Positions 6,924 to 36,615 of a stretch of DNA of 52,516 nt are shown here, piece after piece (position 1 is the first letter of the stretch; every line of letters starts with the position of its first letter). The position numbers were made by a program, and so were the translations under genes. The notes beneath the pieces were generated by a model that was not told the DNA's origin, did not search any database, and worked only from the letters and a program-made list of their open reading frames with translations. This DNA is from an uncultured Pelagibacteraceae bacterium (lineage in GTDB: Bacteria; Pseudomonadota; Alphaproteobacteria; Pelagibacterales; Pelagibacteraceae): contig CACMNP010000006.1 in NCBI GenBank assembly GCA_902615045.1, forward strand, positions 1 through 52,516, given 5' to 3'.

Positions 6924-7052
6924 TTATTTACTAGCAATTTAAACAATTTTTGATAAATTTTTCAACAATGGAGATTATCGTCTATACGCCAAATTTATAT
7001 ATTCATCTTCAAGATGCAGTGTTACTGGTACAATATGTAATCGACGGATTAA

Positions 7053-7082
7053 TTCACATTTCATCAAACATTAAATTATAAT
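7053..7082 (+). promoter_or_regulatory. Candidate sigma-70-type promoter for pilD
   Basis: TTCACA at 7053-7058 and TATAAT at 7077-7082, separated by 18 bases. The -10 match is perfect and the -35 differs from TTGACA at one base. The pilD GTG start at 7092 is only ten bases beyond the -10, so the transcript would be almost leaderless. A+T-rich DNA produces such matches by chance, so this remains a candidate. Confidence 0.5.
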
Positions 7083-7091
7083 CAAATTTAA

Positions 7092-13555: not shown

Positions 13556-13567
13556 TGCACCTTTTTA

Positions 13568-16500
13568 TTAATTTTCTCTCCAAGACTTTCTGTAAGTTTG
13601 AACCTCACCAGTAGCAGCCTCTAAAGTAACGAGGTCAGCAACTGCTCCTAACGATTTACCTGATATATTTGCAAAAATTTTGCCAGCGAAAAGTACAATT
13701 TCTGATAAGACCCCTTTACCAACAAATCTACATAAAGTTTTTTGTTGTTCTGTTCTTTTAGATTCTAATCCAATAAACGAGTCATGTGTTCCGCATTCAT
13801 CATCAGTTACACAAATTAATGCATCTCCCAAGTCACATTTGTTTTGAGATACAGATGGTCTATAAACTGGGAAGTAAACCATACCATTGTTTACTTTTGG
13901 TTGAGCAGTAACTTTAGCAAAATCTTTTAATACAACATACCAACCTCTGTCTTTGTCTGTCACTCTACAAGAAGTTCCGCTTCTATCATTTGATGTATTT
14001 TGACATTTTGTAATATCATCTGCATTTTTTGGAGTTGCGATAGATTTATAGAATGGATAATCTGGATCTTTTATTCCAATCATTAAGTTATTTGTTCCTT
14101 TTACTCTTGCATTCAATCTTTGAGCATCTCCAGTTCCAGCGTACAACCATAAATTATTTGTTGTTCCACCAATTGAAGCATCTAATGGTTTATACATATA
14201 TCTACCATTTGATTTAGTTGCTCCTGCCTTAAATAATGTTGTTATGTCATACATTTTTATAGGTACATTTTGAGGATCTGTACTCATATTTGTTAAATTT
14301 AATTTACTAATTTTACCTTCTAAATCAGACAAGTATACAAGTGCTCCCGCAAAGTCAGCACCCCTTGCTTTATCTGGAGTAATAACTGTTAATGATGCGG
14401 GAACAGAATTATCAATATCGCTTGCAGTAGTATCTTCTACCGTAATTGTCTTTATTAATTGTCCAAACTTATCTTTTGATTGCAGATCAATAACAAATAC
14501 ATTACTACCAGCTCCTGAGAATTGAGCACCAAAACCTCCACCCATTACAGCGACTGATATATCGTCATCTCTGACATTGTCTCCAGCACCAGCATTAGGT
14601 AGTCTAAATATTCTTGGATCTGACCATGTTTCTCCAAGAGTACTGTAGTCCCATTCAGGGTCTGTTACAACTCCAGTACCAACTGCTCCTTGTTTTATAT
14701 TCACTCCTATCGGTGAGTTGTCTCTTTGAGTTTTGGACTCGTCAGCATCAAATTTCATTTTTTTGTTGAAATTAATTTGAGTGTTTCCAGATGTATCATA
14801 GCTAATTGTAATGCTATTTGTTATATCAACTCCATCTTCAAGAACTGATAGCATACTTTTAGTTAGACTTTTTACTGGTAAAGTCCATTTTGTGCTTTCG
14901 TAACAATATTTTGTTTGTGTATCATCACAAGTTTGCTTACTGGCAACTTCATTATCTTTATCTGGAGCATAAACGTTACCTACTTCTTGTGCTTCTAGAA
15001 ATTCACTTAGAGGATAAGATGTACCTATATAATCATATACAAAAACATTATTTGCATGATCCATTCTGTACACCTGATTATTAATCATATCATTATATAT
15101 TGAGACTAAATGCTCTGGTTTTGCAGGATCAGTCACATCTAATACAGAGAAACCACTACCTCCTCTTCCATAAGGTACAAACAATACGGTATGCCAATTT
15201 GCAGATGTATCATGTGGACTTTGAAAGAAAATATCATGTTGAACGGGAGATCCATCAACACCATAAATTGCATTTGAACCTCCTTTGTTTGGATTAATTT
15301 CATTTAAGTTAGTATTCATTATTGTAGGTAATCTTGATGCTATAAATGGTGGCACAAATCCCCACAATTCTACTCCTGAGCCTGCATCTAAAGCATGCAA
15401 AACTCCACTATTTGATCCAGCATAAATTACAGGTTTTCTCAATCTTTGTGATTCTGCCCAACTATCATATCCCTTAGTTGATCTCCAATAAGCTTCTTGA
15501 TTTTCACTTGTAAAAGCTGTTTCTGCAGTTGGTGGTCCTACAACAACTAATTGTGAATGGTAAACATCTCCCATTGGCTTAGCTCTTGCTTCTGTCAGAT
15601 TACAATCTGCATCATAATCAAAATAATCTGTTCCTCTAATAAAATTAATTAAGCCTTTTAAATCATCATCTGTTCCATCAGCCACACCACTTGTGTTTGC
15701 ACATCTTTTATTATTTATAGAATTATCAGTATTTTTAGTTTTTCTGTGATAGTCCTGAATATCAAACCCTTTTAGAGTTAAGATACTTTCAATCGCTGAA
15801 GAATTACTTTCTACCCAGTTGTTATAATTTGTCGAATAATCCGTTCCAGGAATTGGACTCCATATCTTTCTATTCCCTGGTTTAGGCAGTACATCAACAG
15901 CTGACCAGTTACCTTTATCTTTTGTATCAAGATTTCCTTTTTTATCTATTTTTGTTCTCTTAATAGTTCCAGTCCATTCTTTATTTTGAGCATAATCAAA
16001 CTGCGCTTGATACAATGATCCATCAGAGTTTAATGTTGCAGTAATAGCAGGCGCTGTGAAAGATAACTTAGATGCAATTATTTGAGAAACAGCAGCAGCT
16101 AGTTGAGTTTTGAGTGACTCTGCTGTTGGAGCAACAATAGCTTTTGTTGTTCCTCCTGCTACAGCTAGTTCATTAAAATACCTCATTCCTCTATTGCTAA
16201 TTCCTGTTCCAAAAGCAATAGCGAATGTGGGTATCTTATAATTATTAAATAAGTTTTTTGCCATAGCCACAGCTTTTGAGTGATTGTACCAATCACCATC
16301 TCCAATAACGAGGACATAACTTTTTTGACAAGGTGAATTTTTATCAATTGGGCTTAAACTCCCATGAAGATAATAGTCTTGAGCTATTTTCATAAATGTA
16401 TACGCATCAGTACCACCCCTCGCATTTACTGATGAAATAATTTTATTAATTTGTGCAGCTCCATCATTATGAACTCTTACTTTTAAACAGTTTTGAGTAT

Positions 16501-22354: not shown

Positions 22355-24070
22355 ATGAAAAACCCTTTTGCTAATTTATTTAAAAAGAAATCTAAAGAAG
22401 GCGAACAATCACCCGTTCCAAAGAAAGAGGAAAAAAAGAAAAAAGAAAGTTTTTTAGGTAAGTTTTTTAAAAATAGAATTGGAAAATCTGCAGTTCAAGG
22501 AGAAGAAATTGTAGGTGTTGAGCTTTCACCAACAGAAATTAGGTTAGCACAACTAACAACTGATAAATCCAACAAATGGGTTTTAGAAAAATTTTTTATT
22601 CACCCAATTGAAGGTTTAGATAAAAGTGCCACTGTTTTAGATAATCAAGATAAGTTTGGAGACGAACTTAAAATTGCTCTTCAAAAATCTAAAATAACAA
22701 CTACAAATGCTGCGATTGCCATTCCTGTAACTAGTGCAATTATCAGAGTTGTAACAGCACCTCTAATGACAGATGAAGAGCTGAGTAAAGCAATAGATAC
22801 AGACTCCCTTTGGGAAAACCTTGTACAATTAACAGATAACTTAAATGATTATTCAATTTTTCATCAAGTAATAAATAGAGATAAAACCGCAAATACAATG
22901 GATATTTTATTCGTTGCATCGAAACTATCAGATATCAATAGTTATACAGCAATAATAAAGAAGGGTGGTTTAAATGCAGTTATAATTGATGTTAAGTGTT
23001 TTGCTCTAAAATCTGCAGTCGACCAAATGAATCAATTAGCTGGCTCAATTGAGGATGCAAACTTAACTGCAGTTTTAGAATTTGGATTAGATGAAAACTA
23101 TGTAATGATTTTGTATGAAAATAATCCAATTATCACAGATATATTTATAAGATCTCAGGATAGAAATACTCTTCAAAATTCAGATAATCAGGAAGAGATG
23201 GATGCTTTAGTTAGAAGATATGTAACTCAAGTTAAACAAGCTGTGCAAGATTTTGAAACAAAGTATGAAAAAAGAATTAGAAACCTGAAAGTAGTATCAA
23301 ATTTAGAAAATGTAGAAACTTATCTCGGCACTTTTAGAAAAAATTTAACAAATACAGGATTTAATTTATTAGATCCAATTAAAGAAATAAAAGTTCCAGC
23401 ACAACTAGAAGAGAGCGTTAAATTAGATAATAGGTCTTATCTTTCAACTGTTATTGGATTGGCGTTTAGAAAACTTGATGTGTTTGGATATTACAAATTT
23501 GTAACTGCTGTAAAAAATATAAATCTACTTCCTAATAGAGATAGTATGATAGCACAGAAAAAAGCTAAAGTATTTTCTAATTTTGCTTTCAAAGGTGCAA
23601 TAGGAGTTATCGCAATAATTTATATAGTATTATTTGGCCTTTCTTTTTGGCAAATAAATACATTGAATAAACAATTAGTTGGATATGATGATATTCTTCA
23701 AACACATGAACTTAGAACATTAGAAAAAAATAAAGTAGAAAAAGAATTAGCTTTAATTTTAAAATCTTTAAAAATTAGTAAATCAATAAAATCAAACAAA
23801 AAAGTAAGTTTTAGAGTTCTGGCTCAAATAGCTTCAGCTGTTCCAAAAAGAGTAAAATTCAATTCAATAGAGTACAACGGATCAAATCAGATTATTATAC
23901 AAGGAACAGCATCAAGTGACCAAGATATTTTAAAGTTAATAAGTAATTTAAATAATAAAAAACTAATAATGCAAGCACAATTAGCTACAATGACTTTACC
24001 AGATGGTCAAACTGCTGGAGCCCCAACAATGAAGGGATTTAAAATAGCTTGTATTCTGGAGAACGCATAA
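22355..24070 (+). CDS. PilM-PilN fusion, inner-membrane platform of the Type IV pilus
   Basis: 571 residues. A Lys-rich cytoplasmic extension (1-45) is followed by a PilM actin-like domain (about 50-375, starting GVELSPTEIRLAQL) and then, in the same frame, PilN: the PilM-binding motif INLLPNR at 389-395, one membrane helix near 412-432, a coiled coil and a periplasmic ferredoxin-like domain. PilM normally is a separate cytoplasmic protein that grips the INLLP peptide of PilN. Here both are one polypeptide, a layout like GspL of type II secretion. There is no stop or frameshift at the junction. The gene shares a TAATG with pilO. Confidence 0.92.
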   Translation: MKNPFANLFKKKSKEGEQSPVPKKEEKKKKESFLGKFFKNRIGKSAVQGEEIVGVELSPTEIRLAQLTTDKSNKWVLEKFFIHPIEGLDKSATVLDNQDKFGDELKIALQKSKITTTNAAIAIPVTSAIIRVVTAPLMTDEELSKAIDTDSLWENLVQLTDNLNDYSIFHQVINRDKTANTMDILFVASKLSDINSYTAIIKKGGLNAVIIDVKCFALKSAVDQMNQLAGSIEDANLTAVLEFGLDENYVMILYENNPIITDIFIRSQDRNTLQNSDNQEEMDALVRRYVTQVKQAVQDFETKYEKRIRNLKVVSNLENVETYLGTFRKNLTNTGFNLLDPIKEIKVPAQLEESVKLDNRSYLSTVIGLAFRKLDVFGYYKFVTAVKNINLLPNRDSMIAQKKAKVFSNFAFKGAIGVIAIIYIVLFGLSFWQINTLNKQLVGYDDILQTHELRTLEKNKVEKELALILKSLKISKSIKSNKKVSFRVLAQIASAVPKRVKFNSIEYNGSNQIIIQGTASSDQDILKLISNLNNKKLIMQAQLATMTLPDGQTAGAPTMKGFKIACILENA

Positions 24071-24723
24071 TGGATTTGAAAAATATAGATTTAAAAAATA
24101 TAAATGTAAGTGATATAGCTGCAAAGTTAAAAACTGTTGATAAAAAAACTCTTATTAAATTTGGAGCTGGTTTTTTTGCAATTATAATTTTTTTAATTGG
24201 GTATTACTTAATCTTAAATCCAATTGTTAAAGAGAAAAAAGCGTTATACGAAGACAAGGTTTTAAAAGAGTCTGAAATTACTCAATTCGAGGATGAGATC
24301 ATTACAAACAAAAAAAGATTAAAGAAACTAAAACCTCAATTTAAAGAAAGTTCAACGTTGTTTCACTCAAAAGCTGAAGTTGAAGGATTGTATCAAAGCT
24401 TAAGTAGATTTGCAGGCATAAATGGTTTGACGATTTCAAAAATAGAAAAGAAAAAACCAAAACCTATTTTAAAACCTGGTGTTGCTCAACAAGCAGAAGA
24501 ACTGTTAAAAAAAACTGATATCTCTTATTATCAGATACCCGTCGAATATGAGATAAAAGGTAACTTTTTAGGCTACATTAAATTTAAAAGATCAATTGCA
24601 AAATCCAAGAAAATGTTAAATTTTGACAAGGAGACTATAAGTATAGTACAAAACGATTCAACTGGAGCGATAATTGCAAAAGGAGAACTTACAATAGTGG
24701 GAATACCGGATGAATTCTTTTAA
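24070..24723 (+). CDS. pilO: Type IV pilus inner-membrane protein PilO
   Basis: 217 residues from the ATG at 24070. This start overlaps the pilMN stop by one base; a start 21 bases upstream is possible but would add residues inside the previous gene. One membrane helix near residues 31-51 is followed by a coiled coil and a periplasmic ferredoxin-like domain, the PilO layout. PilO pairs with PilN and PilP to connect the platform to the secretin. It overlaps pilP by 14 bases. Confidence 0.88.
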   Translation: MDLKNIDLKNINVSDIAAKLKTVDKKTLIKFGAGFFAIIIFLIGYYLILNPIVKEKKALYEDKVLKESEITQFEDEIITNKKRLKKLKPQFKESSTLFHSKAEVEGLYQSLSRFAGINGLTISKIEKKKPKPILKPGVAQQAEELLKKTDISYYQIPVEYEIKGNFLGYIKFKRSIAKSKKMLNFDKETISIVQNDSTGAIIAKGELTIVGIPDEFF

Positions 24724-25174
24724 AAAAATATTATTCTTTATTTTGTTTTTCTGTATCCCAAACATTGGTTTTGCAGATAATCATTCTACAAATGCTGAAC
24801 TTGTCGAAAAGGCAAAAGAGATTACAAAAACTTTAGAAACAAAAGTTGAAGAAGAGGAAGAGGATGTTCCTTTGAATGATCCATTTGCTGGAAATGAAGG
24901 ATCTAATTCATCTTTAAATCCTGAAACTGGAGAAGAAAGAGATCCAATGAGTTTATATAATTTTAAATTATCAGGATTAATATCAGGAGCAAATGCGAGC
25001 TATATAAGTCTTACAGATGCATCAGGGGATGTAATGACTATAACACTTGGTCAATATCTTGGGAAAGTAAAATTAATTGACTTAAGATTAACAGAAGCAA
25101 TCTTTTTAAAAGAAGATAAATCATACATAATTATAGATTTTAATAACCAAATAAGAGAGGCAGATGAATACTAA
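24710..25174 (+). CDS. pilP: Type IV pilus periplasmic protein PilP (non-lipoprotein form)
   Basis: 154 residues. A signal peptide ends near GFADN (about residue 22) with no lipobox cysteine. An acidic disordered linker (EEEEEDVPLNDPFAG) is followed by a small beta domain of the PilP/GspC type (FKLSGLISGANASYISLTDASG, ITLGQYLGKVKLIDL). PilP normally is a lipoprotein that binds PilN/PilO and the secretin. The gene sits in the standard place before pilQ and overlaps it by 11 bases. Confidence 0.85.
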   Translation: MNSFKKILFFILFFCIPNIGFADNHSTNAELVEKAKEITKTLETKVEEEEEDVPLNDPFAGNEGSNSSLNPETGEERDPMSLYNFKLSGLISGANASYISLTDASGDVMTITLGQYLGKVKLIDLRLTEAIFLKEDKSYIIIDFNNQIREADEY

Positions 25175-26714
25175 GAAAATAATTACATCTGCATACTTAA
25201 TAATATTAGCAATAATTTTAAATAGTTGTGGTCCAAACTCTAAATTTAATCAAAAATATAATAAACCTTTTAAACACAACACACCTTTAATTAAAAATGA
25301 TATAAGACAAACAGGTCAAGCAGAAATTGCTAAAACCTTAGAAATGGGACCTAAGCCAGTTGATGGTGATGCGGTCAAATTAAAGAAAAGAAGAAAAATA
25401 ACATCTGAAACACAGAGAAATTATCTTTTAATTCCTGAAAGCTACCCATTACTTAAACAAAGAGTAACTTTGAAATTTAAAAATTTAGATTTTAAAGAAA
25501 CAATGAAAATGATGGGTAAAATTGGCGAAATTAATGTTTTAGTAGGAGATGAGGTTGCTGGTGCAATATCAGCTGAGTTAGTTGATGTGCCATGGGATAA
25601 AGCATTCCAAGCTCTTTTAGACATGAAAAATTATGCTTCTGATATAGATGTTAACAGCAATTTAATAAGAATTCACTCTCCTGAAACATTAACTGCACAA
25701 GAAAATTATAAATCTGAAAGAGCACAGGCAGTTAAAAATAAAGTAGAATTAGAAGATAGTGTTGAACCAATTATATCTGAAATATTTAGATTATATTATA
25801 TATCTCCTGAGTTAGCAAAAGCTACAATTGAAGAATTATTTCAGACTGGTTCAGGAGAAGCATCAACATCTCCTATAAAAATTACGGAAGAGACAGCCAC
25901 TAGATCAATTATAGTCAGAGGTAAGGAAAGAGATTTAGATACTGTAGATAAAGTTCTGACAGAAATAGATATTAAAACTGAGCAAGTTCTTATCGAAGCA
26001 TTTGTAGTAAAAGCTACGTCTGAATTTGAGAGACAACTTGGAACAAGACTAGGAGGATATTACCAAAGACAACAAGAACAAATTGGTGGAGTTGTTGGAA
26101 CAACAAGTTCATCAGGTACTTTAGATGATACATCTGCTGCACTTGTACAAACAGCTAAAGATAGTTTAACAAATTTACCAGCAATTGGAGCGACGAGTGG
26201 TATCGGAGTATTAAAAAGAACAGGATCGGCTGTATTAAAAGCTGAAATTACAGCTTTAGAAAAAACAGGTATAGTAGAGACAATTTCAAATCCAAAAGTA
26301 TTTACAATCAACAATCAACCAGCATCGGTTACGCAAGGTAAAGAAATTCCTTACGAAACAACATCTGAAGGTACAACATCAACATCATTTAAAGAGGCAG
26401 CATTAAAACTTCAAGTTACACCTAGCATTATTGGAGATGGAAATGTATTATTAGACATTCAGGTAAATAATGATGATGCTGATACTTCTCAGTCAGAACC
26501 TCCTATAACTAAGATGGAAATTACCACGAAATTATTGGTTGCTGATGGAGATATTGTTGTAATTGGTGGAATAAAATCAAATAATGTGACAAAAGCAAAT
26601 GAACAGGTTCCAGGTCTTGGAAATGTCCCTGTAATTGGTAATCTATTAAAATATAAAAAGAATGAAGACAATTTGGAGGAATTGCTTATATTTATAGCAC
26701 CAAGAATTTTATAA
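25164..26714 (+). CDS. pilQ: Type IV pilus secretin PilQ, likely a lipoprotein
   Basis: 516 residues. The N-terminus IILAIILNSCGPNS looks like a lipoprotein signal with Cys near residue 22. An STN/N0-type domain (VTLKFKNLDFKETMKMMG) is followed by an N1 domain and the secretin pore (QVLIEAFVVKATSEFERQLG; PITKMEITTKLLVADGDIVVIGGI; VPGLGNVPVIGNLL). It is shorter than typical PilQ because the N-terminal AMIN domains are missing. It forms the outer-membrane pore. It ends one base into pilB. Confidence 0.93.
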   Translation: MNTKKIITSAYLIILAIILNSCGPNSKFNQKYNKPFKHNTPLIKNDIRQTGQAEIAKTLEMGPKPVDGDAVKLKKRRKITSETQRNYLLIPESYPLLKQRVTLKFKNLDFKETMKMMGKIGEINVLVGDEVAGAISAELVDVPWDKAFQALLDMKNYASDIDVNSNLIRIHSPETLTAQENYKSERAQAVKNKVELEDSVEPIISEIFRLYYISPELAKATIEELFQTGSGEASTSPIKITEETATRSIIVRGKERDLDTVDKVLTEIDIKTEQVLIEAFVVKATSEFERQLGTRLGGYYQRQQEQIGGVVGTTSSSGTLDDTSAALVQTAKDSLTNLPAIGATSGIGVLKRTGSAVLKAEITALEKTGIVETISNPKVFTINNQPASVTQGKEIPYETTSEGTTSTSFKEAALKLQVTPSIIGDGNVLLDIQVNNDDADTSQSEPPITKMEITTKLLVADGDIVVIGGIKSNNVTKANEQVPGLGNVPVIGNLLKYKKNEDNLEELLIFIAPRIL

Positions 26715-28462
26715 TGCTTAAAATTAGTAGAGAGTCTGAAATAAATTTAATTAATATTCTAATTGATCAGGATATTATTTCTGGAAAGGATTTAGTTGAT
26801 ATCAAGAAAGCCTCTTCAGAGGGGGAAAAATCTCAAATAGAAGCAGTATTTGAATTAAAGTTAACTGACGAACAAAAAATTTTAGATCTTTTAGTAAATG
26901 AACAATCTCTAGATATAATCGATTTATCGACTGTAGAAATCACTGATGAAATAAAATCTATTCTTCCTTCAAATTATATAAATATGAATTTTATAGCCCC
27001 ATTCAAAATTGAGGGAAATATTTTACATATAGCAATTCCAGACAGTTCAAAATTAAGTTTGATGCGAAATTTAAAAACTATCACAAAAAAAGATATTGAA
27101 TTACACGCTGCTAAAATTTCAGATATTTCATCCTATATAGACAGATTATTAGCTGATGGTGAAACTACAATGGAGTCTATTCAAAAGGCTAATAGCGAAA
27201 AAACTAAAACTTTTGATTATGACGTTGATGAAAACGCTGAGGTATTAGAAGAAAAACCAGAGGAAGACATTGAGGCTATAGAAAATGAGTCTGATGTTAT
27301 CAAATTTAGTACTGCTGTAGTTGCAGAAGCAATTAAATCGGGTGTATCAGATATTCACATTGAACCGTACAGATTTTCATCAAGAGTTAGATATAGATTG
27401 GACGGTATCTTAACTGAACAAGAGCATTTTGCAAAATTTCTACATTCAAATTATGGGGCGGTAGTTACACGTTTTAAAATTATGGGTAAACTTGATATTG
27501 CTGAAAGAAGGTTACCACAAGATGGAGCTATACCATTTAAAATAGACGGAAAAGTAGTTGATCTTCGATTATCTATTTTACCAACTGCAAACAATGAGAG
27601 AATTGTAATGCGGGTACTTAACAAAGATGCGGGAGACATAAGTTTAGAACAATTAAATTTTGAAGAAACAGATTTATCTAATTTACGAAAAGCAATTCAT
27701 GGAACGCAGGGATTAGTACTTGTAACAGGACCAACGGGTTCAGGAAAAACAACAACACTTTATAGTATTCTTAAAGAAGTTTCTAAACCACATTTAAATA
27801 TTTTAACTGCTGAAGACCCAGTTGAATATGAATTGGATGGTGTTGGACAAGTTCAAATAAAAGATGATATTGGTTTAAATTTTGCTGCAGCACTTCGATC
27901 TTTTTTAAGACAAGACCCAGAAATTATTCTTGTTGGTGAGATGCGGGATAAAGAAACTGTTGATATTGGATTAAAGGCAGCACTAACAGGACACTTAGTA
28001 TTTAGTACTTTACACACAAATGATGCACCAAGCACAATTACTAGATTACAAAACATGGGAACCCCAGATTATTTAATAAGTGCAGCTGTTTCACTTGTGC
28101 TAGCACAAAGGCTTGCAAGAAAAACTTGCACTGAATGTAGAGAGCCAGATGAAGATATTACACCAAAAGCACTTGCTGACTTAGGATTTACTGTAGAACA
28201 AGCATCAAGAGCAAAAGTTCAAAAGGGTAAAGGATGTGCTAAATGCAAAGATAGTGGATATAAAGGACGAATGGGAATTTATGAAATATTAAATGTTACA
28301 AAACCAATTAAAGAAGCAATTTTGAGAAAAGCAACCACTCCTGAGTTAAAAGAAATTGCTGCTAATGAAGGTTTTAGAACAATGCAAGATATGGGGAGAG
28401 AGCTTATTTTAACGGGAGACTTGAATTTTAGAGAATACGATAGAGTTCTATCGATGGATTAA
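26714..28462 (+). CDS. pilB: Pilus extension ATPase PilB
   Basis: 582 residues. An N-terminal GspE/PilB domain (about 1-150) is followed by an acidic linker and the ATPase domain: SDIHIEPYRF, Walker A GPTGSGKTTTLYS, Walker B ILVGEMRDKETV, HLVFSTLHTNDA. A four-cysteine zinc loop (CTECREP and CAKCKDSG) precedes the C-terminus. PilB drives pilin polymerisation. It overlaps pilQ by one base and ends two bases before pilC. Confidence 0.95.
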   Translation: MLKISRESEINLINILIDQDIISGKDLVDIKKASSEGEKSQIEAVFELKLTDEQKILDLLVNEQSLDIIDLSTVEITDEIKSILPSNYINMNFIAPFKIEGNILHIAIPDSSKLSLMRNLKTITKKDIELHAAKISDISSYIDRLLADGETTMESIQKANSEKTKTFDYDVDENAEVLEEKPEEDIEAIENESDVIKFSTAVVAEAIKSGVSDIHIEPYRFSSRVRYRLDGILTEQEHFAKFLHSNYGAVVTRFKIMGKLDIAERRLPQDGAIPFKIDGKVVDLRLSILPTANNERIVMRVLNKDAGDISLEQLNFEETDLSNLRKAIHGTQGLVLVTGPTGSGKTTTLYSILKEVSKPHLNILTAEDPVEYELDGVGQVQIKDDIGLNFAAALRSFLRQDPEIILVGEMRDKETVDIGLKAALTGHLVFSTLHTNDAPSTITRLQNMGTPDYLISAAVSLVLAQRLARKTCTECREPDEDITPKALADLGFTVEQASRAKVQKGKGCAKCKDSGYKGRMGIYEILNVTKPIKEAILRKATTPELKEIAANEGFRTMQDMGRELILTGDLNFREYDRVLSMD

Positions 28463-28464
28463 AA

Positions 28465-29706
28465 ATGTCATCCGAAACATTTTCATATAAAGGTATATCT
28501 GCAGGTAAATATATAGAGGGTGAGATTGAGGCAATTAATCAAGAGGAAGCCTCGTTTAAACTTAAAGAACAAAAAGTAATAATCACAAATTTAACAAAAG
28601 TTAAAAAGAAAAAAGCAGAAAAAGATAAAAAAAAGGGTGGTGGATTTTCATTTGGAAAAAAGAAAGTAAAGCCAGAAGATGTAATGATTTTCTCCAAACA
28701 ATTTGCAACAATGGTAAAAGCTGGATTGCCAATATTAAATGTGTTGGGAATGTTAAGAGATCAAATTGAGCATCCCACAATGAAAGAAATTATTGAAGAT
28801 GTTAGAAAAAATCTTGAGGGTGGTATTACTTTATCAAAGTGTTTTGAAAAATACCCAAAAATATTTGATAATGTTTACATAAATCTTATCAAAGCGGGTG
28901 AAGCCAGTGGTAAATTAGATGTTTTCTTGCTTAAATTAGTCGATTCTCTTGAAAAAAGAGAAAAAGTAAAAAAGAAAATTAAAAGTGCATTAACCTATCC
29001 AGTGGTTATGTTTTCAGTCGCCATAATAGTTATGGTTTTCATGTTAATTAAAGTTGTTCCAGTATTTGCTAAAATGTACGATGGAATGGGTGTTGCATTA
29101 CCAACACCAACTGCCGTAATTATGACTGCAAGTAACTTTATGAGAGGTGCTGGTGGTTTAACTTTAGGTTTAGTTCTACTTACAATATTTATTATTTTTA
29201 AATACACAACCACTAAGATGCCAGCAGTAAGATATAAATGGCATCAACAAGTTCTTAGAATGCCAGTATTTGGTGATATGATTTTAAAGTCTTTAATAGC
29301 AAGAATTTCATTGATCATGGGAAACTTAAGTGCTGCAGGTGTTAATTTACTTGAAAGTATTGAGATTGCTAAATCAGTCAGCAACAATGATGTAGTAACA
29401 CAAGCATTAGAAAATGTTAAAAAAGGAGTATTTTCAGGAGATACATTAACTAAACTTTTTTTAAAAGAACCTGTATTTCCACCAACGTTTAGCCAATTAA
29501 TTTCTGTTGGAGAGCAAACAGGAAATTTAGATGAGATGTTTAGTTCTGTCTCTGCTTATTATGAGGAAGAATTTGATACCGCAGTTGATAACATGTCTAG
29601 TTTAATTGAACCTATAATGATTGTATTCATGGGAACAATGATTGGTGGATTAATGATTGCGATGTACTCACCAATATTCAACGTTGGTGCGATTATTGGA
29701 AGTTAA
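28465..29706 (+). CDS. pilC: Type IV pilus platform protein PilC
   Basis: 413 residues, normal for PilC/GspF. An N-terminal cytoplasmic domain (FSYKGISAGKYIEGEIEA) and a Lys-rich loop precede two T2SSF helical domains (FSKQFATMVKAGLPI; IARISLIMGNLSAAGVNLLESI) and membrane helices near 170-190, 220-245 and 375-400. PilC links the PilB and PilT motors to pilin insertion. Its stop overlaps the convergent kinase gene by four bases. Confidence 0.95.
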   Translation: MSSETFSYKGISAGKYIEGEIEAINQEEASFKLKEQKVIITNLTKVKKKKAEKDKKKGGGFSFGKKKVKPEDVMIFSKQFATMVKAGLPILNVLGMLRDQIEHPTMKEIIEDVRKNLEGGITLSKCFEKYPKIFDNVYINLIKAGEASGKLDVFLLKLVDSLEKREKVKKKIKSALTYPVVMFSVAIIVMVFMLIKVVPVFAKMYDGMGVALPTPTAVIMTASNFMRGAGGLTLGLVLLTIFIIFKYTTTKMPAVRYKWHQQVLRMPVFGDMILKSLIARISLIMGNLSAAGVNLLESIEIAKSVSNNDVVTQALENVKKGVFSGDTLTKLFLKEPVFPPTFSQLISVGEQTGNLDEMFSSVSAYYEEEFDTAVDNMSSLIEPIMIVFMGTMIGGLMIAMYSPIFNVGAIIGS

Positions 29707-30134
29707 TAATTTATTTTCTTTGTTAAAATTAAATGATTTATCCAAGGCTTTTCACCTTCTTTAAATACTACTGCGTCCATAATTTGTTGTATAAAAAAAG
29801 TTCCTAAGCCACCTGGTTTAACATCATCAATTTTTCTGTGCCGAACATTTTCTTTATCAACAGGTCTTCCCTTATCAAAAAAACCTATCTCTAATTCACC
29901 GTTCTTTAAAGAAATTTTTATCTCCATTTTATCTTCAGTGTCTTCACCTTGGTAAGCATGCTTGACAATATTTTGTGCAGCCTCAGCAATCGCTAGGACT
30001 AATTCGTCTTTTAAATCTTGTTCGATATTTACTTTTTCAAACACTTCTCTAGAAAATGATCTTACGTCCTTCAAACTTGCAGAACTAACAACAAAGTCTC
30101 GTTGTTCTGAAATTTGTCTTAGTGCAACCATCAT
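29703..30134 (-). CDS. RsbW-like anti-sigma-factor-type serine kinase (HATPase)
   Basis: 143 residues, a single GHKL ATPase domain. The N-box is ELVLAIAEAAQNIVKHAY with E51 and N55, the G1 motif is D87-K-G89, and the glycine-rich G2 lid is GGLGTFFIQQIMD (108-120). Such kinases phosphorylate a STAS antagonist and alternatively bind a target such as a sigma factor. The gene begins directly after the STAS stop codon, so the pair is co-translated. No sigma factor gene is in the window, so its target is unknown. Two adjacent ATG codons are possible starts. Confidence 0.88.
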   Translation of the reverse strand: MMVALRQISEQRDFVVSSASLKDVRSFSREVFEKVNIEQDLKDELVLAIAEAAQNIVKHAYQGEDTEDKMEIKISLKNGELEIGFFDKGRPVDKENVRHRKIDDVKPGGLGTFFIQQIMDAVVFKEGEKPWINHLILTKKINY

Positions 30135-30434
30135 TTATCCTAAATTCAATATTTGCTCGAGTTTTGCCATCATAATTACTTTTAAAACTGATTTACTTAT
30201 ATCTTTTAAAATTACTTTTTTTCCCAACTCATTCGCTTTTTGATGACTCTCAATAAGAACAGAGATGCCGGATGAGTCCATATATTGAACTTCTTTTAAA
30301 TTAAGATGAACTTCTTTCTTTGCCTCAATTAAAGGCATTATAATTTCTTTTGCTTTTTCAGTTACATCCATGTCAATTTCACCATCAAGGTGAACAATGG
30401 ATACATCTCCTTCTTCTGTAACTTTATATGACAT
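30135..30434 (-). CDS. STAS-domain anti-anti-sigma-type antagonist (RsbV-like)
   Basis: 99 residues, one STAS domain (VSIVHLDGEIDMDV ... YMDSSGISVL). The phosphorylation site is the conserved DSSG at residues 53-56; Ser54 or Ser55 would be phosphorylated by the kinase encoded next and dephosphorylated by PP2C enzymes. It is transcribed away from pilA, with a 141-base region between. Candidate phosphatases in this window are the GAF-PP2C protein and the two Amt-PP2C fusions. Confidence 0.9.
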   Translation of the reverse strand: MSYKVTEEGDVSIVHLDGEIDMDVTEKAKEIIMPLIEAKKEVHLNLKEVQYMDSSGISVLIESHQKANELGKKVILKDISKSVLKVIMMAKLEQILNLG

Positions 30435-30575: not shown

Positions 30576-31037
30576 ATGAAAAAAAATAATAAAGGTTTTA
30601 CACTTATAGAATTATTGGTCGTTGTAGCAATTATTGGTATTTTAGCAGCAGTTGGAGTTGTTGCTTATTCTGGTTACACATCAGGAGCAAAAAAATCAGC
30701 AGTTAAATCTAATCAAGCAGCTATAGTTAAATACGTTGCAGCTGAGTTAAAAAAATGTGAGCTTGGTGAGACAAATGTAATGTCAAACAACTTAAAATGT
30801 GATGACAGAAAAAATGGCGGTGTAGTTGCCACAGGAGTTTCAAACGCATTAGGCACTGAATTTAAAAATCCATATAAAACATCTAAGTCTGCAATAACTT
30901 TAACAGCTTTTTCTGATTGCAAAGCAACAGGAAATGAAGGTGAAACTTATGTAACGGATGATGGAACTACAGTTCAGGTAAAATCGTGCACTAAAAAAGA
31001 TGAAGACATCTTAACTGGTAACGTTACCATAGAATAA
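30576..31037 (+). CDS. pilA: Type IV pilin (likely major pilin PilA)
   Basis: 153 residues. A six-residue-plus-Gly leader (KNNKG) precedes FTLIELLVVVAIIGILAAVGVVAYSGY, the classic mature pilin N-terminus with Glu5. The C-terminal domain has four cysteines (near residues 56, 65, 115 and 138); the last pair may form the D-region disulfide. It is the first of two tandem pilins and has its own upstream region, as expected of the major subunit; which of the two is major is inferred. Confidence 0.9.
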   Translation: MKKNNKGFTLIELLVVVAIIGILAAVGVVAYSGYTSGAKKSAVKSNQAAIVKYVAAELKKCELGETNVMSNNLKCDDRKNGGVVATGVSNALGTEFKNPYKTSKSAITLTAFSDCKATGNEGETYVTDDGTTVQVKSCTKKDEDILTGNVTIE

Positions 31038-31050
31038 TAAGAAATTTCTT

Positions 31051-31491
31051 ATGACAGCCAAAAGCAGGGGTTTTACACTCATTGAGCTTTTGGTTGTCGT
31101 AGCAATCTTAGGAATTATAGCTGCCATTGGAATAACAAGTTATAATGGCTACGTTTCATCAACTAAGAAAAAATCAACTGAAAACGTTCTAAGACAAATA
31201 GCGTTAGCTCAAACCGAATATTATTCAGACAATCAAATATACTATTATGATAAGACCAGTGGTGACTGCACAGCTACCGTCACTACGTCTCAATCAATAG
31301 AAACTAATTTATTGGGTGGTTCGAAAACAATAATAGATCCAAAAGGTAAAAAAGCATTAAACGGATATTGGATTTGTATTTCTAATGATGCTTCAGGTTT
31401 TAAAGCAAAAGCTATAGAAGAAAATAACCGTAGTGGCTGTAAAATAGAATTATTCGCTGATACTAGAGTTGAAAGAAATAATAAGTGTTAG
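31051..31491 (+). CDS. Second type IV pilin (PilE/PilA-like)
   Basis: 146 residues, starting 13 bases after the first pilin stop. Leader to SRG, then FTLIELLVVVAILGIIAAIGITSYNGY. After the helix comes ENVLRQIALAQTEYYSDNQIYYY, a pattern shared with PilE-type pilins, and four cysteines in the globular domain. The first 25 mature residues are nearly identical to pilin 1 but the globular domains differ, so it may be an alternative or minor subunit. Confidence 0.87.
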   Translation: MTAKSRGFTLIELLVVVAILGIIAAIGITSYNGYVSSTKKKSTENVLRQIALAQTEYYSDNQIYYYDKTSGDCTATVTTSQSIETNLLGGSKTIIDPKGKKALNGYWICISNDASGFKAKAIEENNRSGCKIELFADTRVERNNKC

Positions 31492-31496
31492 TTTAA

Positions 31497-31745
31497 ATGA
31501 ATTTAGAGCCAGTAAAAAAACTAATTTCTAATTTCATAAATTCTGAAACAACAAAAAATCAAAAAATTTATTACACACTCAGTTTAGGTTGGATAATATT
31601 TATCGGTTATTTAACCTGGTGGAATGGACTAAGGAATCCGAGTTTAGATAAAAGTTTTAGGTGGGATGAGTGGATTTGGTTTGGATTAGTCCCTGCTTTA
31701 TCACCTTATTTATTCTATTTTATCTGGAAGAAAAAAGACAACTAA
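31497..31745 (+). CDS. Small two-helix membrane protein of unknown function
   Basis: 82 residues; not recognised. Two hydrophobic stretches, YTLSLGWIIFIGYLTWW (about 26-42) and WIWFGLVPALSPYLFYFIW (about 60-78), suggest two membrane helices with a Trp-rich loop. It follows the second pilin by five bases and is probably on the pilin transcript. The start lacks a clear ribosome site, but spacing and the uninterrupted frame favour a real gene. Confidence 0.6.
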   Translation: MNLEPVKKLISNFINSETTKNQKIYYTLSLGWIIFIGYLTWWNGLRNPSLDKSFRWDEWIWFGLVPALSPYLFYFIWKKKDN

Positions 31746-31809: not shown

Positions 31810-33960
31810 ATGGAGAACGTCGATTTGGAATCAGTAAAATCATTTGTTGATACCCTTTGGGTTATAGATTGCGCAATTTTAGTTTTCATAATGCAAGCAG
31901 GTTTTATGTGTATGGAAACTGGTCTTTCAAGACATAAAAATAGCATTAACGTTGCTCTTAAAAATGCTGCTGACTTTGGTCTTGCGGTTGTAATTTTTTG
32001 GCTATTTGGTTTTGGTTTGATGTTTGGAAAAAGTTTTAATGGCTATTTTGGAACTGATTTATTCTTTTTTAAAACTGATCAAGCTGAGTACATGACTTAC
32101 TTTGTCTTTCAAGCAATGTTTGTTGCAACTGCAGCTACAATTGTTTCAGGAGCTGTTGCTGAAAGAATGAAGTTCAACGGTTATTTAATAATTACTATTA
32201 TAGCTACAGGTATTATTTATCCAATAGTTGGTCATTGGGCCTGGTCTTCGAGTTATTTAAATAATATCGATGCTACAAGACAATTACTTGCGGTTACTGG
32301 GCAAGTTAAAACTACTGGATGGCTGACAGATATTGGATTTGTTGATTTTGCAGGAAGCACTATAGTTCATTCAGTTGGCGGATGGATAGCGCTCTCTGCT
32401 GTTTTAATTCTAGGACCAAGAATAGGAAAATATTCAGATGCAAACAAAGGAAAATTCACAGGATCAAGTTTTCCTTTAGCAGTTTTGGGAACCCTAATTT
32501 TATGGTTTGGATGGTTTGGTTTTAATGGTGGAAGTAATGGAGCTATGGATGAGGCAGTTCCTTTAATTTTAATAAATACATTTCTTGCTGCTTCTTTTGG
32601 ATTACTAACAGGTCTTGGAATTTCATTTGCATTATTTAAAAAACCAGATCCTTACTATGTAATCCTTGGACCACTCGCAGGTTTAGTTGCAATTACGGCT
32701 GGATGTAATTCAATGACATCAGTGACTTCAATCTTTGTTGGAATTATAGGAGCTGTAGTTGCAATTTTTGTAAATGAATTTTTAAATAAATTTGAAATAG
32801 ATGATGTTGTTGGAGCAGTACCTGTTCATTTGGCAGCAGGGGTTTGGGGCACTATTGCTGTAGGATTATTTAGTGATCTTGAAATACTTGGAACAGGATT
32901 AACAAGATTAGAACAAATCAAAGCACAGTTTATTGGAATTGTTTCGATCGGTGTATTCTCGTTTTTTGGTTCATATATTTTATTAAAAATTTTAAATTAT
33001 TTTTATCCATTAAGAGTAAGTCCGCTACACGAAGAGTTAGGTTTGAATATTGCTGAGCATAATGCAACCTCTGTAGAACACGATTTAATTACAATTTTAG
33101 AAAAACAGTCTGAGTCTGGTGATTTAACAATCAGAGGTCCACAAGATCCATTTACTGCTGGTGGTGTGATCGGGCTTTATTACAACAGATTGATGAGCAA
33201 ATTAGAAACTAGTGAAGCTGAAAAGAAAGTATGGAGAGATAGAATATCAAATGAAGTAAAACTTGCGGTAAAAGTTCAAGAAAATTTCCTACCAAAAAGA
33301 AACTTGGAAAATTATCCTGTACATGGAATAAATATAGCTGCTAGAGAAGTTTCAGGAGACTTCTTTAGTTTTTATCCTCACAATGATAGTGTTTATTTTA
33401 TTATTGCAGATGTTGCTGGTAAAGGAATTCATGCTGGAATGGTAATGGCAAAAGCATCAACTCTATTTGAAATAATGTCTAGAGATCAAGTAGATCCAGA
33501 TGAAATGATGTTTCATATGAATAATGATCTATTTTTAACTAAAACTGGAGGAATGTTTGTAACAAGTATATTAGGAGAATATAATATGAGGACTGATGAA
33601 TTAAGATGGGTAAATGGAGGTCATCAGCCAGCTATAATTAGATCATCTTCTGGAAATTATGAGCAATTTGAAAGTAATTCTCCACCAATGGGTGTAATAC
33701 TTCAAAAGGATAAGTCAGTCTATAAAACTCACAAAGTTAAGCTAGAAAATAAAAGGTTTTGCGCTTTCACTGATGGTTTATCCGAAAGCTTAAATAGCTC
33801 AGGTGAGGAAATAGGAATAGATGGATCAATTCAAATAATTGAGAAAAACTTCAATATGGACATAAAAAAACAACTAAATGAAATCACAAAAGAAGTAGTT
33901 AAAGTTGCAGGTGAAAATAAATTAAGTGATGATTTAACGTTAATTTCGATTGGAAAATAA
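31810..33960 (+). CDS. Ammonium transporter fused to a PP2C/SpoIIE phosphatase (copy 1)
   Basis: 716 residues. Residues 1-400 are a complete Amt channel with about 11 helices; pore histidines are H187 (IVHSVGGW) and H340 (VPVHLAAGVWG), D179 sits in VDFAG, and AERMKF and GWFGFNGGS are kept. The usual Amt tail motif (EELGLNIAEHNA) leads into a helical linker and a PP2C domain (about 470-716) with metal ligands D517 (SGDFF), D534 (ADVAGKG), D655 (TDGLSE) and D707/D708 (LSDDLTL). The phosphatase would be cytoplasmic and could respond to ammonium binding or transport. Its likely substrate is the STAS protein encoded at 30135-30434 (inference). It has its own good promoter and ribosome site. Confidence 0.94.
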   Translation: MENVDLESVKSFVDTLWVIDCAILVFIMQAGFMCMETGLSRHKNSINVALKNAADFGLAVVIFWLFGFGLMFGKSFNGYFGTDLFFFKTDQAEYMTYFVFQAMFVATAATIVSGAVAERMKFNGYLIITIIATGIIYPIVGHWAWSSSYLNNIDATRQLLAVTGQVKTTGWLTDIGFVDFAGSTIVHSVGGWIALSAVLILGPRIGKYSDANKGKFTGSSFPLAVLGTLILWFGWFGFNGGSNGAMDEAVPLILINTFLAASFGLLTGLGISFALFKKPDPYYVILGPLAGLVAITAGCNSMTSVTSIFVGIIGAVVAIFVNEFLNKFEIDDVVGAVPVHLAAGVWGTIAVGLFSDLEILGTGLTRLEQIKAQFIGIVSIGVFSFFGSYILLKILNYFYPLRVSPLHEELGLNIAEHNATSVEHDLITILEKQSESGDLTIRGPQDPFTAGGVIGLYYNRLMSKLETSEAEKKVWRDRISNEVKLAVKVQENFLPKRNLENYPVHGINIAAREVSGDFFSFYPHNDSVYFIIADVAGKGIHAGMVMAKASTLFEIMSRDQVDPDEMMFHMNNDLFLTKTGGMFVTSILGEYNMRTDELRWVNGGHQPAIIRSSSGNYEQFESNSPPMGVILQKDKSVYKTHKVKLENKRFCAFTDGLSESLNSSGEEIGIDGSIQIIEKNFNMDIKKQLNEITKEVVKVAGENKLSDDLTLISIGK

Positions 33961-33985
33961 TTTCCCCATTTTGATCTAATTTATT

Positions 33986-34014
33986 TTGTATGTTTTTTGT
34001 ATAAATGATACGAT
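33986..34014 (+). promoter_or_regulatory. Candidate promoter for the metal-binding-type protein and second amt gene
   Basis: TTGTAT at 33986-33991, 17 bases, TACGAT at 34009-34014; the start would be near 34021, just before AAGGAA (34029-34034) and the ATG at 34038. The match is reasonable for an A+T-rich genome but not unique. Confidence 0.4.
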
Positions 34015-34037
34015 TTATAAAAAACAATAAGGAAATT

Positions 34038-34367
34038 ATGTTTAAAAAAATAGTCTTAACTATAGGTTTTCTATTATTTAGCACTAACTTATTTGCAGCC
34101 CAAACGCAAATCGCACAAGTAAATGGTATGATATGTATCAAGTGTCAAAAAATGGTCACTGAAGCATTACAAAAGGCTTGTCCTGATGCTACAGTTAATG
34201 TTTCTTGGCCAGAAGGGGTTGCGGTATCTACTTTTGCAGATAAATCAAATTTATCTGAGGATGAATATAAAAATGCAATTTTAGGTACTGGATTTGAAGT
34301 AGTTAAAGTAATTAGTGTTGATGGCATAATTACAGACGCTGAAGAAGCAAGAAAACTTATAGATTAA
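34038..34367 (+). CDS. Secreted heavy-metal-associated (MerP-like) domain protein
   Basis: 109 residues from the ATG at 34038, chosen because AAGGAA lies just upstream and a clean signal peptide follows (FKKIVLTIGFLLFSTNLFAA). The mature part is one HMA-like domain with the metal-site motif GMICIKC. It would bind a soft metal ion such as copper in the periplasm; the metal is not determinable. It sits between the two Amt-PP2C genes, ten bases before the second, and so is probably co-transcribed with it. Its relation to ammonium sensing is unknown. Confidence 0.82.
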   Translation: MFKKIVLTIGFLLFSTNLFAAQTQIAQVNGMICIKCQKMVTEALQKACPDATVNVSWPEGVAVSTFADKSNLSEDEYKNAILGTGFEVVKVISVDGIITDAEEARKLID

Positions 34368-34377
34368 AAAAAATTTT

Positions 34378-36615
34378 ATGACTGTAGCTGAACTCCAAAT
34401 TTTGGTTGATAAGCTACAGTCTAAAATAAGTCAGTTAGAGCTTACAAGTAAAGGAGCAATCAAAGCAACAGAGTTTAGATTAGAAGCTGTACTACAAGCT
34501 AATTTAGATACATTTTGGTTATTAATTTGCGCTATTTTAGTTTTCTTGATGCAGGCTGGATTTATGTGTTTAGAATCTGGTTTATCAAGAAGTAAGAATA
34601 GCATTAACGTTGCTCTTAAAAATATTACAGATTTTGGAATAGCCGTAGTTACTTTTTGGGCCTTTGGTTTTGCATTAATGTATGGAACCAGTGTGATGGG
34701 CTTGTTTGGTAATAAATTTTATTTTTTTACAACCAAGGTAGCTGGTTATCAAACATATTTTGTATTTCAGGCAATGTTTGTTGCAACAGCAGCAACTATC
34801 ATATCCGGAGCTGTTGCTGAGAGGCTTAGATTTTTCTCATACGTAATAATTACTTTTATTACTTCAGGAATTTTATACCCAATAGTAGGCCATTGGGCGT
34901 GGGCTTTTGATTTTACGAATCCAACAGTAAAATTTGGTTGGCTAGGTAAGATGGGTTATTTAGATTTTGCAGGTGCATCTGTTGTTCATTCTGTTGGAGG
35001 TTGGGTGGCATTAGCAATATTACTCATTATTGGAAGTAGAACAGGTAGATTTAGAAAAGATAAAGATAAAAAATTGTTTCAAGGAAGCAACACACCAATT
35101 GCTGCTCTTGGTGCTTTAATTTTATGGTTCGGTTGGTTTGGATTTAATGGTGGTGCAAATGGAGCAATGGATTTAAAAATTCCATTGATATTAATTAATA
35201 CCTTTTTATCAGCATCATTTGGTTTAATCTTTTCAAGTGCAATGGGTATTATCGTAATGAAAAAACCAGAGCCATTATTTATGATTACAGGTCCTTTGGC
35301 TGGTTTAGTTTCGATTACAGCAAGTTGCGCTTATGTTAATCCATCAGAGGCAATATATATTGGAGCAATTGGAGGAATTTTATCAGGCTCAACAATTATT
35401 TTATTAGAGAAATTGAAAATTGATGATGTTGTTAGTGCTATACCTGTTCATCTAGTAGGAGGCATGTGGGGAACTATATCAGTTGCGATATTTGGTGATT
35501 TCGAAATGATGGGATTAGATAAAACAAGATTAGAACAATTAACAATTCAAATCATAGGAACATTTAGCATTGGTGGATTTTGCTTTTTTGCTTCATACAT
35601 AATTTTTAAATCTATAAATTATATTTATCCACTTCGAGTAGGTAAAATCCAAGAGGAGCTTGGTTTAAATATATCAGAACACAACGCATCAACAGATACT
35701 CACGAATTACTCGAAGTACTAACCAATCAAGCAAAAACCGAGGATTATTCATTAAGAGCTCCCCAAGATCCATTTACTGATAGTGGTATTATTGGTACCC
35801 AATACAATTTTTTGATGGAAAAATTAGAACAAAGTGAAAAGCAAAAAAATAAATGGAAAAACAGAGTTTCATCTGAAATTAAATTAGCAATGAATGTGCA
35901 GAAACGTTTAATGCCAAATAGAGATTTGTCTAATTATCCAATTTATGGACTAAATATTCCAGCCAGAGAAATTTCAGGAGATTTTTACGATTTTTATTTG
36001 CATGATGATCTCGTTTACTTCACATTGTCAGATGTTTCTGGAAAAGGAGTTAATGCTGGTATGGTTATGGCTAAGGCAATTACTTTATTTAAAATTTTTT
36101 CTAGATTAAAATTTAGACCTAATGAAATCCTACTTGAAATGAACAATGATTTAAATGAAACTAATCCGCCAGGCACCTTTATAACCTCAATAGTCGGTTG
36201 CTATAATATTAAAACAGACATTATTGAAATTGCAAATGCAGGTCATCAACCAGCTTTGTTGAGAAAAGGAAAGGATTTTGTTGAATATTCATCTTCCTCC
36301 ACTCCTCTTGCAATAGTCAAACATAAAAATGAAAATGTTTATAAGCTAGATACTTTTAAATTAGATGGAGGAAGAATATATTGTTTTACTGATGGTTTTT
36401 CAGAATGTATGGACGAAAATAAAAAAGAAATAGGTATTGATGGAGTTAAGAAACTTTTACTTAATCATCAAAATTCTTCTTTACAAAAAGAACTTGAAAA
36501 TTCTACAGAGGAAATAAGACTTAAAAGTCTCAAAAAAGATTACAAAGAGACTGGTATAAAAGCAAATAACGATATACTTGATGATGATTTAACTATCATT
36601 GGAATTGGGCATTGA
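34378..36615 (+). CDS. Ammonium transporter fused to a PP2C/SpoIIE phosphatase (copy 2)
   Basis: 745 residues, a diverged paralogue of the copy at 31810. It has an extra N-terminal coiled coil (about residues 1-40, AELQILVDKLQSKISQLEL). The Amt part keeps H204 (VVHSVGGW) and H358 (IPVHLVGGMWG) and the run GWFGFNGGANGAMD. After EELGLNISEHNA and a linker, the PP2C domain has D535 (SGDFYDF), D552 (SDVSGKG), D672 (TDGFSE) and DDDLTI near 735-739. A short helical insert near the C-terminus separates it from copy 1. Both channel and phosphatase look functional. Two copies may differ in ammonium affinity or output; that is inference. Confidence 0.93.
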   Translation: MTVAELQILVDKLQSKISQLELTSKGAIKATEFRLEAVLQANLDTFWLLICAILVFLMQAGFMCLESGLSRSKNSINVALKNITDFGIAVVTFWAFGFALMYGTSVMGLFGNKFYFFTTKVAGYQTYFVFQAMFVATAATIISGAVAERLRFFSYVIITFITSGILYPIVGHWAWAFDFTNPTVKFGWLGKMGYLDFAGASVVHSVGGWVALAILLIIGSRTGRFRKDKDKKLFQGSNTPIAALGALILWFGWFGFNGGANGAMDLKIPLILINTFLSASFGLIFSSAMGIIVMKKPEPLFMITGPLAGLVSITASCAYVNPSEAIYIGAIGGILSGSTIILLEKLKIDDVVSAIPVHLVGGMWGTISVAIFGDFEMMGLDKTRLEQLTIQIIGTFSIGGFCFFASYIIFKSINYIYPLRVGKIQEELGLNISEHNASTDTHELLEVLTNQAKTEDYSLRAPQDPFTDSGIIGTQYNFLMEKLEQSEKQKNKWKNRVSSEIKLAMNVQKRLMPNRDLSNYPIYGLNIPAREISGDFYDFYLHDDLVYFTLSDVSGKGVNAGMVMAKAITLFKIFSRLKFRPNEILLEMNNDLNETNPPGTFITSIVGCYNIKTDIIEIANAGHQPALLRKGKDFVEYSSSSTPLAIVKHKNENVYKLDTFKLDGGRIYCFTDGFSECMDENKKEIGIDGVKKLLLNHQNSSLQKELENSTEEIRLKSLKKDYKETGIKANNDILDDDLTIIGIGH

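Follow-up and report, generated by a model that had tools for sequence, protein, structure and literature searches.

Candidate ammonium receptors fused to PP2C phosphatases beside partner-switch and pilus genes in SAR11 bacteria

Ks-Amt5, the ammonium sensor histidine kinase of Kuenenia (structure 6eu6), is an Amt protein with a C-terminal signalling output; its description (PMC5764959) assigns a two-ammonium site to Q24, E31, N47, D50, T51, T109 and T112, reports a pore that retains the known motifs yet is obstructed, with ammonium not efficiently translocated, and finds that kinase phosphorylation rises at low ammonium and falls again at higher concentrations. Switches of the RsbU/RsbP type (PMC12143880 and PMC8256260) combine a SpoIIE phosphatase, with a helical linker before its PPM domain, with a STAS protein and an RsbW-like kinase; in the former source the helical linker of RsbU activates it by bringing two phosphatase domains together, and sensors are proposed to be exchangeable among PPM, histidine kinase and GGDEF proteins. 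Here we analyse a 52,516-nucleotide contig of an uncultured SAR11 bacterium (CACMNP010000006.1; hereafter the window), in which two neighbouring genes each encode an Amt protein fused to a C-terminal SpoIIE/RsbU-type PP2C phosphatase. The proteins resemble Ks-Amt5 in their overall plan, with a PP2C phosphatase in place of the histidine kinase. The locus also resembles the RsbU/RsbP-type switches in having a SpoIIE phosphatase, a STAS protein, an RsbW-like kinase and a helical linker, but its sensor is an Amt, its genes lie inside a pilus cluster, and no dedicated alternative sigma factor was found in ten SAR11 genomes. A further parallel is SypA/SypE, where a STAS output without a known dedicated sigma target is linked to surface behaviour (biofilm; PMC8256260); its input differs from that in SAR11, and its STAS protein is handled by the dual kinase/phosphatase SypE.

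Two Amt–PP2C fusion genes

The window is one whole contig of a genome of 1.1 Mb in 42 contigs, estimated as 74% complete. The two fusion genes and the two genes of the adjoining switch are as follows.

31810-33960, plus strand: Amt–PP2C fusion 1, 716 residues; a sensory-type Amt at 17-420, then a HAMP-like/helical linker at roughly 421-495, then a SpoIIE/RsbU PP2C at 526-714
34378-36615, plus strand: Amt–PP2C fusion 2, 745 residues; N-terminal extension; a paralogue, of early origin by the tree
30135-30434, minus strand: stand-alone STAS protein, RsbV/SpoIIAA-like, 99 residues, with the motif D53-S54-S55-G56
29703-30134, minus strand: HATPase_c_2 protein, RsbW-like serine kinase/switch protein, 143 residues, E51 and N55 conserved

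Both fusion frames run without interruption from start to stop and are 52% identical to one another. Pfam places Ammonium_transp at 17-420 (E 4.6e-111) and SpoIIE at 526-714 (E 1.2e-35) in fusion 1, and at 47-438 (E 2.9e-106) and 544-741 (E 7.8e-27), respectively, in fusion 2, which bears out the two complete fusions described in an earlier note made on the letters of this DNA (the original prediction). The pore histidines are where that note had put them (H187/H340 in fusion 1, H204/H358 in fusion 2), and the PP2C aspartates it had reported are present in both copies (D517, D534, D655 and D707/D708; D535, D552, D672 and D736/D737); as judged from the PP2C family, these include the metal ligands. 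The SpoIIE matches above cut-off, together with the family aspartates, identify both C-terminal domains as SpoIIE/RsbU-type PP2C phosphatases. The suggestion that the copies differ in an N-terminal coiled coil was loosely worded: in the alignment fusion 2 has 30 additional N-terminal residues, and fusion 1 has none.

Peptide patterns from the fusion alignment, including a motif around Q29 (see below), were run against 84,980 species genomes and recovered 329 relatives; the 80 best were kept, and all counts over 80 loci refer to these. The original prediction had proposed examining the phylogenetic spread of the architecture, and had regarded absence from related genomes as the mark of an assembly artefact. 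All 80 kept loci come from SAR11 (Pelagibacteraceae or Pelagibacterales) and all bear the fusion, at 80-100% identity to fusion 1 over matches spanning 655-716 of its residues. Without use of the Q29 motif, 102 open frames that combine Amt and PP2C motifs were picked in these loci, at least one per locus, three of them short and ending at contig ends; with 15 more from 13 loci fetched by similarity, the genomes being partly shared, they form a set of 117 fusion frames. D517, D534 and D655 are kept in all 117, and D707 with D708 in 114, the remaining three being gapped there in frames cut by contig ends. Ratios of nonsynonymous to synonymous substitution (NG86) over seven relatives, an eighth having been dropped for length, were 0.012-0.057 for the Amt domain and 0.043-0.146 for the PP2C domain, values that are approximate given the extent of synonymous change. 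Strong purifying selection acts on both domains, and the fusion is real and maintained. Carriage on mobile elements was considered and rejected: 124 viral-contig stretches matched the pattern, none encoding a relative, and 157 plasmid records matched, none with a single place covering at least 80% of the query. No Amt–SpoIIE or Amt–PP2C fusion was found in literature titles and abstract openings, a coverage from which subscription journals are largely missing, and the architecture may have an entry in curated domain databases; the terms ‘phosphatase’, ‘fused’ and ‘sensor’ are absent from a paper on marine Amts (PMC9277239).

The Amt half and its linker

The solved chains closest to the fusions are 8qj3, 8qj4 and 8qpf (E about 1e-118 and 1e-123), with an alignment that reaches into the linker; 6eu6 (Ks-Amt5) is also among the close ones. 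The first three are reportedly Sd-Amt1, an Amt-HAMP-diguanylate cyclase with a GGDEF output (Sci. Adv. 2024); the ten SAR11 genomes, in contrast to that output, have no GGDEF match. The equivalents of the Ks-Amt5 ammonium site in fusion 1 are Q29, E36, N52, D55, F56, T110 and S113, such that five of the seven residues (Q, E, N, D and T109) are identical in the fusions, whilst the replacements of T51 by F and of T112 by S represent the state in most other output-fused Amts. Q29, D55 and T110 are present in 117/117 fusion frames. At the same positions Q, D and T occur in 45/45, 44/45 and 45/46, respectively, of the Amts with other outputs that cover the sites (48 relatives, described below); 17 plain Amts of the same genus and order, a set with many near-identical members, carry A, L or K, and S, with Q/D/T in none. 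The pore histidines are general among the 48 relatives where covered (H340 in 48/48, H187 in 46/46).

In an Amt-domain tree rooted on plain Amts, 12 PP2C fusions form a single clade (0.998) nested among fusions to histidine kinases, GGDEF proteins and chemoreceptors; 8qj3 is sister to the SAR11 fusions (0.865), with GGDEF-EAL proteins close by and Ks-Amt5 elsewhere in the sensory group, and several inner nodes are weakly supported. Since there is one PP2C clade and the two paralogues diverge at its base, the receptor-phosphatase was probably fused once and then duplicated early. On this residue and tree evidence, the Amt half of the fusions is not of the SAR11 transporter type and groups with sensory Amts. 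The Q/D/T residues and the tree rule out that the fusions arose when an ordinary SAR11 transporter acquired a phosphatase. ‘Receptor’ also appears a better term for the fusions than channel or transceptor, because they bear sensory-type residues and Ks-Amt5, with the same pore residues, does not translocate ammonium efficiently (PMC5764959); the original prediction, which had taken intact pore histidines to indicate a working channel, lacks support in that wording.

The linker provides a second connection to sensory Amts. A profile of 92 residues, built from five rows of which one is from 8qj3, matched 21/398 genomes across the phylum Pseudomonadota and 30/385 across the class (source genome included in each). 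Outside the source genome there were 51 distinct matches, of which three weak ones were left out (G500 and the second matches in G679 and G602); the other 48 comprise 28 histidine kinases, 16 GGDEF-EAL proteins, three chemoreceptors and one protein with PAS only, and a PP2C output was found in none of them. The linker is thus shared by the SAR11 fusions and by Amt-kinase, Amt-GGDEF-EAL and Amt-chemoreceptor proteins, and within the genus it occurs in 45/151 genomes, all 45 of which have a SpoIIE match. An Amt receptor already tied through one linker type to histidine kinase, GGDEF and chemoreceptor outputs fits the exchangeable-sensor scheme of PMC12143880. Three linker relatives (L161, L174 and L201) give HAMP matches below cut-off. 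In three Pseudomonadota loci (L175, L177 and L205) an Amt with the same linker is joined to a chemoreceptor signalling domain; these are candidate ammonium chemoreceptors.

Partner-switch genes inside a pilus cluster

The STAS protein mentioned in the original prediction is real, and the gene for an RsbW-like HATPase adjoins it; the latter protein gives sub-threshold matches to RsbW and anti-sigma F models. Over 100 loci, all 74 HATPase matches retain E51, N55 and the glycines, and 70/72 STAS matches retain the DSSG motif, the other two not reaching it. A PP2C phosphatase, a STAS protein with DSSG and an RsbW-like kinase occurring together have the composition of a partner-switching (RsbUVW) system, in which the STAS protein is the likely substrate of the phosphatase. 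Both genes lie close to the fusion in 54/80 kept loci. Across the genus the kinase, counted as matches above 50 bits (57 matches, all in open frames of 104-166 residues), is present in 56/151 genomes; the raw HATPase tally was 81 genomes at E 0.001 and 58 over cut-off, the rest being weaker and most in longer frames. SpoIIE occurs in 70/151 genomes, and all 56 kinase genomes are among these 70 (Fisher 1.6e-28, a value that overstates independence because the genomes are related and unevenly complete), in support of the partner-switch setting first suggested. The kinase was found in 39/45 fusion genomes, including 9/9 of those at least 90% complete. Not every SpoIIE need feed the switch, since G009 and G063 (both at least 92% complete) have SpoIIE and the kinase was not found in them.

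The surrounding genes, and a further SpoIIE gene of the window, are listed here.

22355-29706, plus strand: type IV pilus/Msh-like cluster with a PilM-PilN protein, secretin, MshE-type ATPase and T2SSF protein identified among the frames scanned; two further open reading frames lie between PilMN and the secretin
30576-31491, plus strand: two pilin-like genes upstream of the fusions, with prepilin-type N-termini by eye; the position of the first is conserved
31497-31745, plus strand: 82-residue protein without a Pfam match, between the pilins and fusion 1; position conserved
34005-34367, plus strand: small CxxC protein between the two fusions, weakly HMA/MerP-like; NCBIfam matches all below cut-off, no Pfam match
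5634-6923, minus strand: GAF-SpoIIE phosphatase (Pfam), which may provide this switch with a second input

Encoded on the minus strand, the STAS and HATPase genes separate the T2SSF/MshE genes from the pilins. Near the fusion, MshE was found in 53 and MshG in 54 of the 80 kept loci. The association of the kinase with pilus genes extends to genomes without the fusion: 20 HATPase loci from 19 genomes (11 without the fusion) were examined out of the 57 matches, and in 17 of the 20 the HATPase gene is accompanied by a STAS gene and by one or more Msh or pilin genes. In G012, G106 and G121 the HATPase is divergent (31-40% identity) with no STAS match, and two of these show MshE and secretin relatives within the same 17 kb.

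Ten chosen genomes were searched for conventional targets of such a switch. Each has two proteins with sigma-70 region 2, of RpoD and RpoH size, and a dedicated alternative sigma factor was not found in any of the ten; G004, which lacks SpoIIE and the RsbW-like kinase, has the same two. A diguanylate cyclase is the partner-switch target in Hsb/Sia-like systems; no GGDEF protein was found in the ten genomes (controls 8/14), and hence no such target. With neither found, the simplest candidate target is the pilus machinery, and from the neighbourhood it is probably what the switch acts on. Given the pilus-cluster setting, the two sigma factors and the lack of GGDEF proteins in the ten genomes, on none of which the original prediction drew, the likely output shifts from nitrogen metabolism towards the pilus.

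Several other features of these loci were observed. The MshE-type ATPase (26714-28462, plus strand) has an MshEN domain, which is usually a c-di-GMP (cyclic di-GMP) site, although the ten genomes gave no GGDEF match; by eye, the RLG motif of this domain is missing. The 82-residue protein has a tblastn match in 56/80 kept loci, beside the pilins and the fusion, and the small CxxC protein, weakly MerP/CopZ-like, occurs in 23/80, 22 of which also have the second fusion. The GAF-SpoIIE gene is flanked by rod-shape/cell-wall genes (MreB, a transpeptidase and the FtsW/RodA family) and a prepilin peptidase. Locus L045 encodes a CHASE2-SpoIIE phosphatase (5697-7748, plus strand; Pfam) a few kb from its Amt–PP2C gene, and L047 has an open reading frame (12843-14894, plus strand) of equal size with a similar start and a similar place; in each locus an autotransporter-domain protein follows. 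In ten loci (L111, L113, L114, L117, L119-L122, L125 and L126) the fusion adjoins a gene resembling a 426-residue open reading frame of L043, presumably polY, and no pilus or switch gene was found within reach of these loci.

Proposed mechanism, alternatives and nitrogen sensing

We propose that the fusions are ammonium receptors of the membrane, trimers to judge from their family, and that external ammonium would bind within the membrane at the site that Ks-Amt5 first revealed. The signal would pass through the C-terminal HAMP-like/coiled-coil linker, whereupon the PP2C domains pair and become active and dephosphorylate the neighbouring STAS protein in its DSSG motif; the dephosphorylated STAS protein would then bind the RsbW-like kinase and free the other partner of the kinase, which would probably alter the activity of the surrounding type IV (Msh-like) pilus. 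To the chain from ammonium receptor through PP2C to STAS, which is predicted from sequence, we assign a probability of roughly 60%. That ammonium turns the phosphatase on, rather than off, is somewhat favoured by analogy with Ks-Amt5. The fullest version, in which the receptor-phosphatase of PII-less SAR11 drives a sigma-free and c-di-GMP-free partner switch acting directly on the pilus, we put forward tentatively. What appears to be new here is a sensory-type Amt with a PP2C output, in a lineage where PII was not found, associated with an orphan partner switch whose genes lie among those of a pilus; sensory Amts themselves are known.

A number of observations weigh against this scheme. Within the ammonium site, the residues equivalent to T51 and T112 of Ks-Amt5 are F and S, and of its pore-blocking residues Y30 is replaced by M or L and F34 by L; since site and blocking residues differ from Ks-Amt5, transport by the fusions is possible. 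E36 and N52 are non-discriminating, as they also occur in plain Amts, and the frequency of Q29 in the 80 loci is biased by search patterns that contain its motif. No Pfam HAMP match was obtained in the SAR11 linkers even at E up to 5, and structure prediction of the fusion was poor (mean pLDDT, the predicted local distance difference test score, of 57, too low for use). The STAS/HATPase pair was not seen near the fusion in 26/80 kept loci, in some through contig ends; the kinase was not found in 6/45 fusion genomes (55-87% complete), nor the fusion in 17/56 kinase genomes. The neighbourhood is, moreover, an indirect guide to the pilus as target.

Among the alternatives, the one that survives best retains the same receptor and switch and gives the kinase a sigma factor as its other partner, either the RpoD-sized or the RpoH-sized one, so that ammonium would set a transcription programme. 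RsbW-like proteins are classically anti-sigma factors, and the kinase matches RsbW and anti-sigma F models, albeit below cut-off; in Chlamydia, an Rsb network reportedly governs how available the primary sigma factor is (PMC4552016). Nonetheless, as the switch-less G004 has the same two sigma factors as the other genomes, the presence of a sigma factor does not follow that of the switch, and the kinase genes examined lie mostly within pilus clusters; we consider a sigma partner unlikely, if a serious contender. Somewhat less probable still is a true transceptor: here the fusion would transport ammonium, and the phosphatase, with either output, would be driven by the transport cycle instead of by a static site. 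In favour, both pore histidines and the Phe gate are kept and two of the three Ks-Amt5 blocking residues are replaced, but the fusions carry the sensory-type Q/D/T residues and fall in a clade of receptor-type fusions, the source genome holds two further Amt genes without a fusion, and the pore residues of Ks-Amt5 do not make it an efficient transporter (PMC5764959). A constitutively active or inactive PP2C carried as a passenger on an ordinary transporter is improbable in view of the conserved aspartates, the low substitution ratios and the co-occurrence with the kinase. An assembly artefact or pseudogene can be dismissed, with 80/80 kept loci, from separately named SAR11 assemblies, containing a long open frame that holds both motifs.

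The preferred scheme, ammonium reception linked through PP2C to STAS, bears on how nitrogen is sensed in this lineage. The original prediction had suspected that the lineage lacks PII and proposed a check for glnB/glnK; PII was found in 0/151 genomes of the genus and in 0/22 of those at least 90% complete (control genomes 13/14), nor was it found in the source genome (74% complete). The Amt fusions are accordingly not paired with PII/GlnK as assimilatory AmtB-type proteins are. The interpretation in the original prediction is partly supported: PII was indeed not found, and the fusion and its partner-switch setting hold, whereas the channel/transceptor wording lacks support. A response independent of PII is reportedly the subject of Smith et al. 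2013, in line with these counts. PMC6018831 states that the same PII system is found in other SAR11, in conflict with our count.

The position of the SAR11 fusions beside switch and pilus genes suggests that external ammonium becomes a signal with no need for the standard nitrogen regulator, and it names a candidate receptor, a likely substrate and a testable output for nitrogen sensing in these streamlined, PII-less bacteria. For the family, a phosphatase joins kinase, GGDEF-EAL and chemoreceptor domains as outputs on the same ammonium-sensing module. If the link to the pilus is true, some of the most abundant cells in the ocean would respond to patches of ammonium by changing how they attach or use their pili, with no cascade of transcription factors in between.

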